IMG/VR virus record: IMGVR_UViG_3300004457_000002
Span: 1-43,970 of that record
Length of the DNA stretch: 43,970 bases
Source: a virus
Reading direction: 5' to 3' (one strand)
The translations under genes were made by a program, and so were the position numbers. The notes beneath the pieces are model-generated. The model was not told the DNA's origin. It saw only the letters and a program-made list of their open reading frames with translations, and made no database searches. The number at the start of each line of letters is the position of its first letter. The first letter of the stretch is position 1. This document shows positions 17,721-38,199 of the stretch, piece by piece.

Positions 17721-18527
17721 TTATATTGGTCTTAGCCTTTTTTCCGTTTCTTGATGATAGGTCAATGTTTTTAACTCGACCCCACTTCTTATTGCATTCC
17801 AAGCCTTAAAGATTAAGGCAAGTCTTGCGTCATGCGTCATTTTTGACTCTTTATTTATCTTATCATCAAAGAGTTTTTTTCGCAAAAGCAAAATAACTTT
17901 ATCTCTTACGTCGCCTGTACATAATTGGTTGAAAAAAGAATCTGCCTGTTGTTTGTCGATTTCAGATAAAAACATATATATGGCGCAAATTTCAGACAAA
18001 ACAAGGCATTTTGACATTGATTCATACCATCTTCCAGCCTTCATTATAGACAAATCCCATTCCCCAGCCTTTTCTTTATATTTAGATAATACCTCCTGGT
18101 TTGTTAGCTTTGTTGTTCTTGCTCCTGACCTCCTAAATGCGTATTCGTTTTTTATTCTATCATAAACTTGAATAGATGTACTAACCCTGATTGCATTAGG
18201 TATTCCATACACGGAAAGCGTATCGCCACCAGACCTTCCCCTACCTGTATCTATAACATCGAATACTTGATCATCTAATCCATAAACAATAAGGCACTTA
18301 ACAGAAACACCACTTTTTATTATTGCATTTAATCGATGTTGTCCATCGAGCAATCTATTTGTTTTTGATACTTTTATAGACTCACCCGTTTGCCCTCTCC
18401 ATTTTCCGGTTCTCATGTCGTCAGTGTACCTTAGTAGCAAGTCCTCCTTTAGTGGCCTGTTTTTATCGTTGCCTTCTAGTAAGTGGGCTGCATAAACTGG
18501 ATCAATCAATACTTCTTTAAATTCCAT
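17721..18527 (-). CDS. ParB-like nuclease-domain protein
   Basis: 268 residues from the ATG at 18527; a longer in-frame GTG start at 18617 would place translation through a terminator and a hairpin loop and is unlikely. The motif LLDGQHRLNAIIKSG near residues 60-74 is the ParB/Srx-type DGQHRL signature, which binds nucleotide in this superfamily. The rest is helical and resembles phage proteins annotated as ParB-like or DNA-binding. It has its own consensus promoter, a structured leader ending in a terminator just before the ATG, and its own terminator, so it is a self-contained cassette between the tail chaperones and tape measure. Confidence 0.75.
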   Translation of the reverse strand: MEFKEVLIDPVYAAHLLEGNDKNRPLKEDLLLRYTDDMRTGKWRGQTGESIKVSKTNRLLDGQHRLNAIIKSGVSVKCLIVYGLDDQVFDVIDTGRGRSGGDTLSVYGIPNAIRVSTSIQVYDRIKNEYAFRRSGARTTKLTNQEVLSKYKEKAGEWDLSIMKAGRWYESMSKCLVLSEICAIYMFLSEIDKQQADSFFNQLCTGDVRDKVILLLRKKLFDDKINKESKMTHDARLALIFKAWNAIRSGVELKTLTYHQETEKRLRPI

Positions 18528-18535
18528 TGTGAGTA

Positions 18536-18630
18536 AAATAAAAAATGGCCGTCCGGTAGAGTGCGAACGGCCAAAGGTTAGCAAATTGTTTGCTAATTTG
18601 TCAACCCGGCGGTACACTCTACCTTACCGC
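18536..18630 (-). ncRNA. Structured leader with kissing-loop terminator (attenuator)
   Basis: Read on the minus strand: first hairpin GCGGTA/TACCGC (18609-18630) with loop AGGTAGAGTG; second hairpin TTAGCAAA/TTTGCTAA (18578-18596); third hairpin TGGCCGT/ACGGCCA (18546-18573) followed by T6. The loop of the third holds CACTCTACC, the perfect 9-nt complement of GGTAGAGTG in the first loop. The T-tract ends about 10-14 nt before the ATG at 18527. This is either a transcription attenuator controlled by a loop-loop contact, or a short stand-alone RNA of about 100 nt. I know no named class with this structure. Confidence 0.65.
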
Positions 18631-18641
18631 TAGGTCTATGT

Positions 18642-18672
18642 CAAAGATAGCACAATATTTCGATTCTCCAAA
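18642..18672 (-). promoter_or_regulatory. Consensus Bacteroidota promoter for ParB-like unit
   Basis: On the minus strand TTTG (18669-18672), 19 nt, then TATCTTTG (18642-18649), a perfect match to TTTG-N19-TAnnTTTG. It lies directly after the previous terminator and 12 nt before the first leader hairpin. Confidence 0.8.
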
Positions 18673-27955: not shown

Positions 27956-27999
27956 TTTCTTTGATTTTATGGGAGGCTTTGTTCCCTCCCGATTACCTT

Positions 28000-28050
28000 A
28001 CAAATATCGGGTAAAAACTTAACCCACGAAATACCCTAAAAACGGTATTT
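28000..28050 (-). promoter_or_regulatory. Element-type promoter, site B
   Basis: In gene sense AATACCGTTTTTAGGGTATT (28030-28049), 21 nt, then GATATTTG (28001-28008). The element overlaps the stop of the 577-aa gene. Same layout as sites A, C and D. Confidence 0.65.
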
Positions 28051-31412: not shown

Positions 31413-31463
31413 ACAAAGTACGGGGTTTTTAAGTTACTAAAACATACCCTAAAAACGGTATTT
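31413..31463 (-). promoter_or_regulatory. Element-type promoter, site C
   Basis: In gene sense AATACCGTTTTTAGGGTATG (31443-31462), 21 nt, then GTACTTTG (31414-31421). It overlaps the terminase stop codon. Differs from site B in one base of the 20-mer. Confidence 0.65.
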
Positions 31464-32790
31464 AAATCATCTTGGCAAACTTCTTGATCGGCAACTCAAA
31501 CACCATGCGCATCATTAAGCTTTCTGCACGGTCGGGAGAAAATCCTAACAACTGCTTCATTGCTTCTTTTGGTGTTATAGTTATCTTCCCGTCCTTCTCG
31601 GTATGGTGCTTTCGGATGTTTTCCAATTCTAGTATATCCTGTTCTCTTCCATCGGTTGACTTAATGTAAATACCGTTCTCGCTGATCTTCTTTGCCAGCA
31701 TGTAGAAACACTGCGCTTTGAGGTGCAAGTAGTTGATTTTGTGCTTACCATCCTGAATTGGAGCAGCACCGTTATTGAATGGTTGCGCCGTCTTGAGATA
31801 CCCACGCAGGAACGCCCCTACCCCATCCGCATCATAGGCAATGTTTCTTTGTGGCACGCCGTACTCCAAAGCCTTTTCCCTTAGCATCAGTTCCACTTCG
31901 TCCGCGTCGCACTTGTCAACTACATACGTCGCAATTACCACCCATCCATGCCAAACGCGAATAACAAAGCGGTCAGAGCCGTGCAGGGCAATGTCGGCGG
32001 TGATGTACTTTTGACCTGTTTCCTGTATGAAGGAATTGGTGTACATGTCCTCCAGCGCTTTCTCTGGAAACAAAATTGAATCGTCACTTACCCCTTCGGC
32101 CAAATATAGCGCCGTGAATACCGAAAGCGGCAAATCCTGCCTTGCCTGTTCAATTTCCTTTTCATCCAAGATTCCAGCTCGTACTGCGTCGTATGCTGTG
32201 ACTCGGAAGGCAGCGTATTCGGCTGGGTCGGTTTTGGCTTTGTTGGTGAGCTTATGCCCCCAATTGCTTTGTCCGGTGTAGTTGCCGATAAATTTGACCG
32301 GGGCTTTGGTGAACGTGACAGTAGAACGGAGTGCAAACCAAGCCGCCTGTTTGGCGCGGGTGAACTCATCGAAAACAACGCCGTAAACATCCTCGCCATA
32401 AAGGTTGTCCGGCGTATCGGCTGACTTGAAAGATATGATAGTGCCTTTTGGGGTTGTGATTGCTAAATCTGAGTTATTGAATTTATAACCAGGTGCATTA
32501 AGGATGTGGCGTTTCATACGGGCAAAGGCGATCTTTGCTTGTGAGTACACCGGGGCAACCCACCAATAGTTTTGGCCGGGCTTTACATTGTCTGTGTACC
32601 ATACCGGATCAAGGCCATGAGCCAACCGGAAAAGCCAATAAATGTGTGAGAATGTTTTGCCCGTCTTTGTGGATGCCTCGACAACCGAAAACCGTTGCGG
32701 GCAATTCAGGAAAGCCTTTTGGTAGTCTGCAAGCTTTGGGGGCTTAATGGTAATTTTAATTCGGCTGTTATTCCTCGTTACTACTGTCAT
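31462..32790 (-). CDS. terL: Terminase large subunit
   Basis: 442 residues from the ATG at 32790. The ATPase half has a Walker A variant EASTKTGKT near residues 39-47 and Walker B VYGVVFDEF near 135-143. The nuclease half shows the RNase H-like acidic residues in ITADIALHGSDR, IAYDADGVGAFL and a final SPDRAESLMM. These are the conserved elements of terminase large subunits that translocate DNA into the procapsid. Overlaps the small subunit by 23 nt. Confidence 0.92.
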   Translation of the reverse strand: MTVVTRNNSRIKITIKPPKLADYQKAFLNCPQRFSVVEASTKTGKTFSHIYWLFRLAHGLDPVWYTDNVKPGQNYWWVAPVYSQAKIAFARMKRHILNAPGYKFNNSDLAITTPKGTIISFKSADTPDNLYGEDVYGVVFDEFTRAKQAAWFALRSTVTFTKAPVKFIGNYTGQSNWGHKLTNKAKTDPAEYAAFRVTAYDAVRAGILDEKEIEQARQDLPLSVFTALYLAEGVSDDSILFPEKALEDMYTNSFIQETGQKYITADIALHGSDRFVIRVWHGWVVIATYVVDKCDADEVELMLREKALEYGVPQRNIAYDADGVGAFLRGYLKTAQPFNNGAAPIQDGKHKINYLHLKAQCFYMLAKKISENGIYIKSTDGREQDILELENIRKHHTEKDGKITITPKEAMKQLLGFSPDRAESLMMRMVFELPIKKFAKMI

Positions 32791-33396: not shown

Positions 33397-33415
33397 TTGC
33401 GGATGATAAATTAAA
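33397..33415. repeat. 19-bp direct repeat flanking RNA ligase gene, copy 1
   Basis: TTGCGGATGATAAATTAAA occurs here, at the RNA ligase stop, and again at 34133-34151, just before its start. The similarity continues imperfectly to a following ATG in both copies. Confidence 0.75.
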
Positions 33416-34121
33416 TTAATCCTGATTCATTCCAAACATCTTGCCCTAAATACTTGCCCGTCTCAAAATCAGGCCGAACATACTTTGCGAGAAAGTCAAC
33501 TTTCCCTTTGCGTTCGACTCGGTAAATTAAGCCCTCTGGTTTTTCAAGGCACTGCGCAGAATATGTAAATTTTGAGTCTTCTAAAATCCTCCACGCCTGA
33601 TCTATGTGAATTGCTCCACCCATAAACAACATCCTTGGGAAAGAAACACGATCAATCCCAATAAATCGACCAACTACTTCTTTGTAAGGCATTCGCTCCA
33701 TGCATCGCATTAGGTCAAACCAAATAACCGGATTGTTAGCATCTATTCGATATTTTAATCCATGTGCCATTAACATCAACTCGCCACAAAGTCGTTCACC
33801 GTCTTGAAGGGTTTCGACAAACAAATCTTGATTGTCTTTCACCCACTTTGCGAAAATGTGGTGCATCTCATGTGGTGATGTTTCCGCTAAATATCCCGGC
33901 CTGGTCAACGCGACAATTTGCCCATTGATTTTTGCCACCGCCACATTAGAACCGTCGAACTTTTCTTGAACAATGATAACGTCGTGCTTGTCGCGGGTTT
34001 TGACTGTGCAAATATCGTGTTGACCTTGTGGCACCGTGTGATCACCCTCGCCAACCTTTGAGCCGATCAGGTGCGGAATTGAACCGTATGCTTTTTGGCC
34101 TAGTGGCTTTTCTGGTTTCAT
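33411..34121 (-). CDS. ATP-dependent RNA ligase family protein
   Basis: 236 residues. The nucleotidyltransferase motif I is EKFDGSNV with the adenylated lysine at residue 54 (K-x-DG-x-N). Motif III-like and IV-like elements follow (IWFDLMR; PEGLIYRVERKGKVDFLAKY with motif V Lys). The N-terminal YGSIPHLIGSKVGEGDH is shared by RNA ligases of the Rnl2/DRB0094-like group. It probably joins or caps RNA 5'-phosphate ends, for example in repair of host-cleaved tRNA. It is bordered by 19-bp direct repeats, suggesting cassette insertion. ATGA overlap with the lipoprotein gene. Confidence 0.85.
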   Translation of the reverse strand: MKPEKPLGQKAYGSIPHLIGSKVGEGDHTVPQGQHDICTVKTRDKHDVIIVQEKFDGSNVAVAKINGQIVALTRPGYLAETSPHEMHHIFAKWVKDNQDLFVETLQDGERLCGELMLMAHGLKYRIDANNPVIWFDLMRCMERMPYKEVVGRFIGIDRVSFPRMLFMGGAIHIDQAWRILEDSKFTYSAQCLEKPEGLIYRVERKGKVDFLAKYVRPDFETGKYLGQDVWNESGLI

Positions 34122-35034: not shown

Positions 35035-35098
35035 TAGCAGAGTACTTTTTTTCATGAGAAGATGTTGTTTGGTTCCCGGTATTGAGCCGGGTTTTTTT
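35035..35098 (+). ncRNA. Short leader or small RNA ending in terminator
   Basis: From promoter 1 to the terminator CCCGG-TATTGAG-CCGGG-T7 (35075-35098) is about 64 nt without a convincing open frame. It starts with GCAGAGTAC-TTTTTTTCAT, shared with the leftward leader. It could be a small RNA or an attenuated leader requiring antitermination. Confidence 0.55.
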
Positions 35099-35127
35099 GA
35101 AAGAAGCGGGAAAGCTCGTTTAAATAT

Positions 35128-35236
35128 GGGGACGCAGTTAATTCTGGTGAGACTAGTTAATCATCGGAGGCGAAACAGCCGGATTGTATACCCGGTGTCT
35201 AGTACTATTGCAGGTTCGAGTCCTGTCCGTACCCAC
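35128..35236 (+). tRNA. Degenerate tRNA-like sequence
   Basis: The 3' part holds a textbook T-arm, GCAGG-TTCGAGT-CCTGT, followed by CCGTACCCACA. The 5' part, GGGGACG then AGTT-AATTCTGGTGA-GACT, looks like an acceptor strand and D-arm with the GG pair in the loop. Acceptor pairing GGGGACG/CGTACCC has one mismatch and a 1-nt offset. A CCGG/CCGG hairpin with loop ATTGTATAC could be an anticodon arm (GTA, Tyr), but about 24 nt too many separate it from the D-arm. A remnant tRNA, a tRNA mimic or an attachment-site core are all possible; a functional tRNA is doubtful. Confidence 0.4.
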
Positions 35237-35242
35237 AAATCA

Positions 35243-35300
35243 GGCCACAGAGGGGTAATTGCCGGAGAATTGAGTCAACGGATTTACCCCGATGTAGGCC
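35243..35300 (+). other. Nested inverted repeat in control region
   Basis: GGCC (35243) with GGCC (35297), GGGGTAA (35252-35258) with TTACCCC (35284-35290), and an inner CCG/CGG pair can form a three-tier stem. It is non-coding. It could be part of the tRNA-like transcript, a protein-binding site or a replication-origin element. The rest of 34878-35473 holds only the promoters, terminators and leaders listed separately. Confidence 0.45.
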
Positions 35301-35308
35301 GGGAAGAA

Positions 35309-35338
35309 TTGATTTTTTGATTTTATTTTGTATCTTTG
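35309..35338 (+). promoter_or_regulatory. Rightward promoter 2 (replication genes)
   Basis: TTG (35309-35311), 19 nt of T-rich spacer, TATCTTTG (35331-35338). Close to the consensus and immediately upstream of the second kissing-loop leader. Confidence 0.7.
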
Positions 35339-35342
35339 CAGT

Positions 35343-35446
35343 AAATACGATTGGACGTGGAACCCCTACCGTATTTTCTTTATGGGATTATAGTTACAAG
35401 AATGCCTGTCGGTTCCACAACTTTAGACGGGCATTTTCTTTTTTTG
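35343..35446 (+). ncRNA. Structured leader with kissing-loop terminator (attenuator)
   Basis: First hairpin AAATACG/CGTATTT (35343-35349, 35370-35376) with a 20-nt loop containing GTGGAACC (35357-35364). Terminator hairpin AATGCCTGTC/GACGGGCATT (35401-35410, 35426-35435), one G-U pair, then TTTTCTTTTTTT. Its loop begins with GGTTCCAC (35411-35418), the exact complement of GTGGAACC. The T-tract ends 28 nt before the ATG at 35474. Same plan as the leader at 18.54-18.63 kb but with unrelated sequence. Confidence 0.65.
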
Positions 35447-35473
35447 TACTTTCGTAACTTAACCATAAAGACA

Positions 35474-36472
35474 ATGAAACAAGTTTTAAAAGCACTTCAC
35501 CAGCGGCCTATCGCTGTTTATCCAATCTACATTGATTTAACAGGTTCAATTTCCGGGGGCTTACTCCTTTCGCAACTGCTATATTGGCTTGAAAAAGTAG
35601 ACCGGGAAATCTGGAAAACGGATGCCGAGATAATGGCAGAAACGCGGTTAACTCAAACTGAATTTAGAAACGCCAAAAAAGCTATATCTGCCTTGCCTTT
35701 CGTTTCTGTAACTAAACGAGGCATACCCCCTAAGACTTTTTATGCTGTTGATTGGGATGGATTAGCTAATGAAATAGACTCTCTCATTTCGTCGGTTACC
35801 TACAAAATGGATCGTAGGTTACCTACGAATAAAAGGGGAGGTAACCTACCAAATGTACGGTCGGTAACCAACGGCGTAATACATAGACTACATTCAGAGA
35901 ATACAACAAAGATTACTTTTGAACCTCAAAATGAAATTGAAGGAAATGATTTGCTTGTAACAACGATTGATGAAGTAGACGAAACAGAGGTTAAGGTTAT
36001 AGAAATCATTCCTTCAATACAAGAACAAACCCCACCCCTCAATTCCGCAACACCCCCCGCCCCAAAGAAAGCGAAGCGAGAACCAAAATACATCTACCCC
36101 CCCACCCAGGAGGAATTGGTTCCACTGTTCTATGCGAAATTCCAAGAAAAGAAACGCGACCACTCAAATATTATCGACTGCTGGAATTGGTCAAACATGG
36201 AAGCGGAAAAGTTCTTTTTGCATTGGGAGCGTAAAGGATGGACTATTCAGAAGCTAGGCAATGCGATCGCAACATGGGTGAACGGCTCGATCACATTTGG
36301 TACTGTCACCAAACCCTGCCCTATCCAGTACAAGAACAACCCCGCGAACGCACAACCAGCGGCGCAACCTACCAACCTGCACGTAGAAACCAGACTTCCA
36401 GAACAAGACAAAGCAGCCCGCAAAGCTATGTTTGCAGCGGCTAAGGCGGAGTTAAACCAAATTGGAGCATGA
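35474..36472 (+). CDS. Replication initiator, wHTH replisome-organiser type
   Basis: 332 residues from the ATG at 35474 (the frame extends upstream only through the terminator). The N-terminal domain reads KALHQRPIAVYPIYIDLTGS followed by LLLSQLLYWLEK and IWKTDAEIMAETRLTQTEFR, the winged-helix pattern of phage replication proteins that bind the origin. A Pro/Thr/Glu-rich linker (about 165-225) leads to a C-terminal helical domain (about 245-290, WNWSNMEAEKFFLHWERKGW) as in helicase-loader partners. First gene of the replication operon, next to the structured control region, with attenuated expression. Confidence 0.75.
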   Translation: MKQVLKALHQRPIAVYPIYIDLTGSISGGLLLSQLLYWLEKVDREIWKTDAEIMAETRLTQTEFRNAKKAISALPFVSVTKRGIPPKTFYAVDWDGLANEIDSLISSVTYKMDRRLPTNKRGGNLPNVRSVTNGVIHRLHSENTTKITFEPQNEIEGNDLLVTTIDEVDETEVKVIEIIPSIQEQTPPLNSATPPAPKKAKREPKYIYPPTQEELVPLFYAKFQEKKRDHSNIIDCWNWSNMEAEKFFLHWERKGWTIQKLGNAIATWVNGSITFGTVTKPCPIQYKNNPANAQPAAQPTNLHVETRLPEQDKAARKAMFAAAKAELNQIGA

Positions 36473-36801: not shown

Positions 36802-38150
36802 AAAAGTCAAAAAAAACTACTATCCACGTCGAAGCCTCAATTGTCGGAACGCTTTTTTCATGGCCTGATGGGTTTGAAAAGGCATCTTTACACCTTAAAC
36901 CAGAAATGTTTACACATTTTAGGTCATGTTATGAATGGATGTGTAAACAGTTTGACGAGCAACGCAGTTGGGATATTCAGATTTGCGCCGCAAAATTTGG
37001 GGATATTACCGATCTCATTGTAGCAAGCGAACCCGAAACGCTTTTTTCAGCAATCGCTTTTTTAACCGAGGAATATAACCGGGAACAAGATATTTCATCT
37101 TATTACGGAGCTATTGGCATGCTGGAAGGTCACGACGTAGGTGAAGTAAGACAGTACGTAATGTCCCGTATCACCGATAACCCCGCTCCTATTGAAGATG
37201 AACGTCGTAGAGGTGATAAGATCAAAGAGGCACTTGATAGCATTGAAGACATGGACAACGGCGTTCCGGTTAGCATTGAGGATTGGAATGAGAAGTTAGG
37301 CGGGTTCAAGGGGTCAGAGCTTACTTTTTTAGGCGGTCGCCCTGGAACCGGAAAAACCCGCCAGGCTATTTCGTTGCTGCTGGATTTGGCGAAGCAAGGA
37401 ACACCAACACTTTTTGTTTCTATCGAAATGCCCGAAAGGAAGGTATATTTGGAATGCGTTTCGATAATGACGGGCATCGATAAATACCGGATGATGCGCG
37501 GCGGGTTAGAATTGCATGAGGTTAGAGAATGCACACAGGCCGGAATTGAGCTTTCAAAGCTTCCGTTTTACATCCTAGATTACAGACAAGCAACAAACAA
37601 ATGGACGATGATAAGCCGGGTTGTACGGCGCTACAAGAGAGATTTTGGAGTGAAAGTGTTTGGCCTGGACTATATCCAGATCATCCACAGTGGGATTGAT
37701 AAGATCGACAACGGCAATATTTTGCACCGATTAACCCGCGTTTCAAACGATCTCTTCATGTTTTGCAACGCTACTGAACTAGATTGCATTGCTTGCGCTC
37801 AGTTAGGCCGTCAGGTAGAAAGCAAGCCAATGAAACGCCCTACCAGTATGTCGGATTTGAAAGAGGCTGGAGCATTTGAACAGGATGCGGATAAGGTTGT
37901 AAACCTTTGGCGGCCTACCTCCTGCGGAGTTGAACGAGATGAGGAAGGCCGTGAATATAAGAAAAGCGAAACGGAGTGGATTATTGTGAAGAACCGCCGC
38001 TTTGACATTATAGGATCGTTTTGGACTGGAAGAGAGGTACAACCCGCATCTAACCAGTTCCCTGTAAAGTCAGAGCAGCCACACGTAGCACCACTACAAG
38101 AACCGATCCAGGCAGACAACCGGAATTTTGAAGGGGTGTTGCCGTTCTAA
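36798..38150 (+). CDS. dnaB: Replicative DNA helicase, DnaB type
   Basis: 450 residues from the ATG at 36798, inside the previous stop (CCATGA). The N-terminal helical domain (EASIVGTLFSWPDGFEKASL) is followed by a RecA-fold domain with Walker A GGRPGTGKTRQA (about 187-198), Walker B VFGLDYIQIIH, and the DnaB motif SMSDLKEAGAFEQDADKVVN near residues 350-370. Acts as the hexameric fork helicase of phage replication. C-terminal tail is Pro/Gln-rich and probably disordered. Confidence 0.92.
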   Translation: MKKSKKTTIHVEASIVGTLFSWPDGFEKASLHLKPEMFTHFRSCYEWMCKQFDEQRSWDIQICAAKFGDITDLIVASEPETLFSAIAFLTEEYNREQDISSYYGAIGMLEGHDVGEVRQYVMSRITDNPAPIEDERRRGDKIKEALDSIEDMDNGVPVSIEDWNEKLGGFKGSELTFLGGRPGTGKTRQAISLLLDLAKQGTPTLFVSIEMPERKVYLECVSIMTGIDKYRMMRGGLELHEVRECTQAGIELSKLPFYILDYRQATNKWTMISRVVRRYKRDFGVKVFGLDYIQIIHSGIDKIDNGNILHRLTRVSNDLFMFCNATELDCIACAQLGRQVESKPMKRPTSMSDLKEAGAFEQDADKVVNLWRPTSCGVERDEEGREYKKSETEWIIVKNRRFDIIGSFWTGREVQPASNQFPVKSEQPHVAPLQEPIQADNRNFEGVLPF

Positions 38151-38199
38151 AATACCATGTTTTGGGTATTTATAGTGTGAAAAAGTAGGCGTAAATTGC
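38151..38199 (+). promoter_or_regulatory. Element-type promoter, site D
   Basis: AATACCATGTTTTGGGTATT (38151-38170), 21 nt, then TAAATTGC (38192-38199). The 20-mer is identical to site A. It begins right after the helicase stop codon. Confidence 0.65.

Follow-up and report, generated by a model that had tools for sequence, protein, structure and literature searches.

Analysis of the window, a virus record of 43,970 bases numbered from its first base, revealed two leaders in which a 5′ hairpin (hp1) and a downstream predicted terminator hairpin carry exactly complementary loops. We propose, with a probability of roughly 0.58, that these leaders represent a class of kissing-loop attenuators found in tailed-phage contigs with Bacteroidota-type promoters, for which termination and read-through are predicted. 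Members of the class share a plan in which a promoter box lies from a few to about 12 nt ahead of hp1, the terminator follows after a linker of 13–31 nt and usually stands just ahead of the first codon, and the two loops are exactly complementary over 7–10 nt.

Leader I precedes a replication initiator gene at 35.3 kb. The initial annotation had described at 35309–35447 a promoter, a hairpin and terminator with complementary loops, a T tract and an ATG, and the sequence does read in this way. The features below also draw on a scanner for paired loops and on a related viral contig of 44,330 bases, IMGVR_UViG_3300022745_000060 (G001), whose aligned DNA is mostly 78–87% identical to the window.

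35309–35338, + strand: promoter of leader I, TTG ... TATCTTTG, of the −33/−7 type of Bacteroidota (motif match; start predicted)
35331–35338, + strand: TATCTTTG, the −7-type box of this promoter (read from the sequence)
35343–35376, + strand: hp1, stem AAATACG (35343–35349) / CGTATTT (35370–35376) (from the sequence; stem also kept in G001)
35357–35364, + strand: kissing sequence GTGGAACC within the hp1 loop (sequence and scanner)
35377–35400, + strand: linker of 24 nt that includes GGGATTATA, kept in G001 (comparison with G001)
35401–35435, + strand: predicted intrinsic terminator hairpin with a 10-bp stem and a 15-nt loop (from the sequence)
35411–35418, + strand: kissing sequence GGTTCCAC at the start of the terminator loop (sequence and scanner)
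35434–35445, + strand: T-rich tract of the terminator (from the sequence)
35474–36472, + strand: gene for an O-like replication initiator of 332 aa, with its ATG at 35474 (phrog_9773)

The 7-bp stem of hp1 is followed by an internal loop and a 2-bp GG/CC helix that closes the 10-nt apical loop ACGTGGAACC, while the terminator stem is formed by AATGCCTGTC (35401–35410) and GACGGGCATT (35426–35435); GTGGAACC and GGTTCCAC are exact complements over 8 nt. The arrangement is that of an intrinsic-terminator attenuator, with a promoter and then a terminator hairpin and U tract ahead of the first gene. The protein encoded by this gene has a match in phrog_9773, "replication initiation O-like" (E 4.9e-16), and downstream of it lies a gene for a DnaB-like helicase.

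Immediately upstream of leader I, a segment of about 200 nt (35095–35300 in the window; 2218–2430 in contig L003) is conserved and structured, and its constant ends (GAAAGAAGCGGGAAA... and CAAATCAGGCCACAGA.GGGTAATTGCC...TTACCCCGATGTAGGCC) flank a variable core. The core is tRNA-like in the window (tRNA-Sec model, 24 bits, E 0.018, below the cut-off) and different in G001, and ARAGORN found no tRNA in the segment. A gene for an RNA ligase (33411–34121, − strand; PF09414, E 1.6e-14) lies near this tRNA-like segment.

Leader II, at 18.6 kb on the minus strand, was expected from the initial annotation to have the same architecture without sequence similarity, and both expectations hold: the kissing sequences GGTAGAGTG (18623–18615) and CACTCTACC (18563–18555) sit in the hp1 and terminator loops and are exactly complementary over 9 nt, and no obvious sequence is common to the two leaders except the promoter and the plan.

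18642–18649, − strand: TATCTTTG promoter box of leader II (motif match)
18609–18630, − strand: hp1, GCGGTA-AGGTAGAGTG-TACCGC (sequence and scanner)
18546–18573, − strand: terminator hairpin, followed by TTTTTTATTTT (sequence and scanner)
17721–18527, − strand: gene for a 268-aa ParB-like (DGQHRL) protein, phrog_5931 (profile match)

A protein search with the product of this gene against viral and bacterial contigs found nothing. Elsewhere in the window, a palindrome-like motif, AAATACC...GGGTATTT, is repeated in non-coding stretches ahead of genes (about 2885–2910, 27985–28015, 31435–31465 and 38150–38171); it is also present in G001 and G002 and may serve a phage regulator as operator or as upstream promoter element.

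The scanner, which searches for two hairpins with exactly complementary loops of at least 7 nt and a T tract after the second, found leaders I and II in the window and no other site. A shuffled background had been named beforehand as the test of the proposal; run as 100 dinucleotide shuffles of the window, it gave three scanner hits, none of them beside a promoter box, and the proposal was not refuted. Ten whole contigs (276 kb), picked because each carries one leader or more or is related to the window, contained 12 promoter-linked sites, and 20 shuffles of the full set contained none. A chance origin of the loop pairs was ruled out by these shuffles.

Comparison with relatives revealed that the loops change in a compensated manner. 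Both leaders are present in G001 at the same positions as in the window. The leader I loops read GTGAGACC(C) and GGTCTCAC in G001 against GTGGAACC and GGTTCCAC in the window, so that two neighbouring loop pairs are swapped, and both stems have changed compatibly. The leader II loops read GTGATGTAC and GTACATCAC against GGTAGAGTG and CACTCTACC, with a conserved linker hairpin and terminator frame. Family A, six contigs that were found by sequence instead of pairing (three of them known before), contains the loop pairs GTAGCCG/CGGCTAC, GTAGCAG/CTGCTAC, GTTGCAG/CTGCAAC and ATAGCGG/CCGCTAT. All 42 cells of its 7-bp kissing helix are paired and three of the seven columns have changed on both sides, whereas the hp1 stem is nearly invariant, with one one-sided change among ten pairs; the loops thus change faster than the stems yet stay complementary. 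In family B (L093, G007 and G006), all three variants are paired and the four varying columns are all compensated (hand count). These compensatory changes, which keep the pairing in the relatives, bear out the earlier suggestion that the loop–loop contact itself is under selection.

We assembled 16 distinct leaders, which fall into eight unrelated families. Each hp1 loop matches its own terminator loop over 7–10 nt and any other over at most 6 nt, in a set of which part was found through pairing; unbiased support therefore comes from the pattern scans that are blind to pairing and from the relatives found by sequence. The two loops are Watson–Crick complementary and covary, as in a kissing-loop RNA, and the complementarity stops at the loops without extension into the stems. 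Beneath the apical loop of 7–10 nt, the hp1 helix of most leaders is interrupted by one or two internal mismatches or by a small internal loop. Within the hp1 loop, R-U-N-R is the usual start of the kiss, with the UNR core but without the preceding pyrimidine of a strict YUNR; this pyrimidine is found in the other loop of two leaders, L212 and L019. The YUNR U-turn in a recognition loop is a feature of antisense control RNAs (PMC6562991), for which interior loops in kissing hairpins are known as well as U-turn loops (PMC4878617, PMC6562991). By a hand estimate, formation of the kiss together with full stems is only just possible in the tightest leaders, which have a 13-nt linker.

Two patterns that ignore loop pairing were used to assess the breadth of the class. 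The first, a promoter box with a T tract 70–100 nt further on, was applied to viral contigs, and among the matches listed (at least 120) a genuine terminator hairpin was present at 33 loci. Of these 33, 12 have a sequence further upstream that is complementary to the loop of the terminator (p < 0.06), and the rest have p ≥ 0.33. A stricter promoter and terminator pattern, applied exhaustively to 2.9 million viral contigs, gave 24 loci. The kissing plan is present at 17 of them, nine of which had appeared in the first set while the other eight were new. The same pattern on 84,980 bacterial genomes, likewise scanned in full, gave 69 loci, none with the kissing plan. Judged from their sequence, these are largely signal recognition RNA genes, and the few low p values among them arise mainly from that RNA's own long helix. 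The scanner found no promoter-linked kissing site in 504 kb around the bacterial loci. The class thus looks viral; since it is rare or absent in bacterial chromosomes, its carriers may be non-integrating phages.

A DNA search with leaders and genes against cultured phages gave only short matches within the gene. No leader was seen close to the initiators in five records of isolate-derived Bacteroidota phages, nor in Flavobacterium phage 11b; the phages checked were those of Flavobacterium, Porphyromonas, Croceibacter and Parabacteroides. When the two-row alignment A1 was used for scanning, poor peptide patterns were chosen and only two additional copies came up. The initial annotation had envisaged a new class of leader, possibly common to this phage group, and the plan does occur in many viral contigs with unrelated leader sequence. 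Since the plan recurs in many unrelated viruses with Bacteroidota-type promoters, it looks like an RNA switch of a class not described so far.

Most leaders precede replication initiators, which are of different kinds and have several unrelated N-termini: O-like in the window and, by sequence resemblance, in L212; HTH_36 in L019 and L021; Lin1244_N in L093; and DUF1376-like in L211 (weak match). The leader of L106 precedes an HNH protein, and the genes of leader II and of the family B leaders lie in the tail region. Outside family B, the ATG follows 12–40 nt after the terminator stem in nearly all leaders; family B leaders have no gene for about 300 nt downstream. The gene behind the same leader can be swapped, as seen for leader II (an unrelated 211-aa gene in G001, the ParB-like protein in the window and L011), for L021 and L093, and for L068 and L211. 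The initiator behind leader I in G001 differs from that of the window in its N-terminal half. Initiators behind the same leader in L021, L093, L003, L211 and L217 likewise have exchanged N-terminal domains and a common C-terminal part, which indicates that the leader is a recombination boundary. The non-coding stretch of about 300 nt behind the family B leader (12375–12697 in L093 and the equivalent place in G006 and G007) has a conserved start (GATTGGGTCTTAACACGGGTTCACCCCAAC), with its own TATCTTTG box in the L093 copy, and is perhaps another RNA.

In the mechanism that we propose, most transcripts would end at the terminator and yield a compact RNA of about 100 nt, which the kiss would close, and a minority would read through into the gene, usually a replication initiator. 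The kiss would form once the terminator loop leaves the polymerase and would support termination, so that expression would rise when a factor or a competing RNA prevents it. Pairing that involves loops only does not reveal whether termination is favoured or hindered; we lean slightly towards the former because the kiss leaves both stems intact and never competes with the terminator. A classical attenuator with an antiterminator was rejected in 13 of 13 leaders, in which the best upstream pairing with either terminator arm is at chance level, and a motif test revealed no promoter opposite leader I or II that would point to antisense control. With neither an antiterminator nor an opposing promoter found, the leaders do not appear to be classical or antisense attenuators.

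The short terminated RNA could itself be the end product: a stable small RNA, with the two hairpins and the kiss to guard its ends, and with the downstream gene incidental or served by leaky read-through only. Promoter, 5′ hairpin and terminator do form a complete small-RNA gene, the genes behind the same leader are exchanged, and in family B, where about 300 nt of non-coding DNA follows, the short RNA may indeed be the product. We nevertheless consider this unlikely for the class, as coincidence would hardly place an ATG, mostly that of an initiator, so soon after the stem in nearly all other leaders. It is also conceivable, if slightly less so, that the contact forms between molecules and that short leader RNAs of sibling genomes pair with nascent leaders through the same loops. 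The resulting signal would report the number of genome copies or keep out a superinfecting relative, by analogy with plasmid copy control or P4/IsrK-type RNAs. Loops that diverge faster than stems, remain complementary and pair poorly with the loops of close relatives resemble specificity determinants, and Gifsy-1 IsrK, whose short terminated isoform acts on its own read-through transcript, offers a precedent (PMC4825925). Against this, the partner always lies in the same molecule 13–31 nt away, so that pairing in cis should win, and drift under a pairing constraint would also explain the divergence. Were the contact between molecules real, the fast, compensated change of the loop code would separate relatives, as in plasmid incompatibility, and act as a self/non-self signal.

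Processive antitermination, in which the folded leader would ride the polymerase through this and later terminators, is improbable. The leaders do follow promoters directly, one that of the replication operon and the other in the late region, and the put RNA of phage HK022 is a precedent (PMC9378689). Here, however, the terminator hairpin itself is one of the kissing partners, and no sequence shared by all leaders was noticed that could bind the polymerase. Least probable is that the 7–10-mers form an inverted repeat in DNA, two half-sites that co-evolve with a regulator and involve no RNA contact. Half-site covariation and the lack of G–U pairs in the kiss would fit, but both copies sit in hairpin loops in every leader and the terminator stems vary compatibly too. 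The sequences also differ between the two leaders of one phage, so that one protein could not read both, and a pair of DNA operators is accordingly disfavoured.

An attenuating kiss would differ from known systems in its design. Attenuators normally choose between two folds; in the phage leaders, two hairpins coexist, tied by a loop–loop contact, and the sequence of this contact is freely replaceable if both sides match. In the ColE1 RNAI–RNAII system, loops are complementary over about 7 nt and the loop sequence is exchangeable between relatives. The phage leaders are alike in both respects, although the ColE1 kiss is intermolecular and acts on a primer, whereas the leader kiss would act in cis on a predicted terminator. 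The HK022 put RNA is not known to include the terminator. It is likewise a structured leader RNA in phage early transcripts that controls termination, but it binds RNA polymerase, unlike the action proposed here (PMC9378689). The attenuators of the pT181 and pIP501 rep genes also place a terminator in a replication gene's leader and let kissing hairpins decide the outcome, but they use an antisense RNA and an antiterminator, neither of which was found for the phage leaders, whose partners lie in the same RNA (PMC4878617). P4 CI RNA and Gifsy-1 IsrK are likewise phage leaders in which one promoter gives rise both to a short RNA that ends at a terminator and to an mRNA that reads through it; they act in trans on other segments, and the abstract consulted describes no loop–loop design of 5′ hairpin and terminator (PMC4825925). 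In the sources consulted, none of the four systems has the full plan and each has one part.

Literature searches, with most subscription journals outside their scope, found no such leader described. Rfam release 15 gave no match to the leaders at the gathering score and only sub-threshold matches at chance level; one of these, of the terminator to ctRNA_p42d, scores 19 bits, far below the cut-off of 50. The plan is simple enough for scanning and is covered by no RNA family, and in many uncultured viruses it stands ahead of the replication gene, which is essential. Should termination be set by the kiss, this would constitute a compact RNA switch that draws its specificity from only 7–10 base pairs. 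Away from the leader of L106, positions 389–425 of that contig match the DUF805b RNA above the cut-off.
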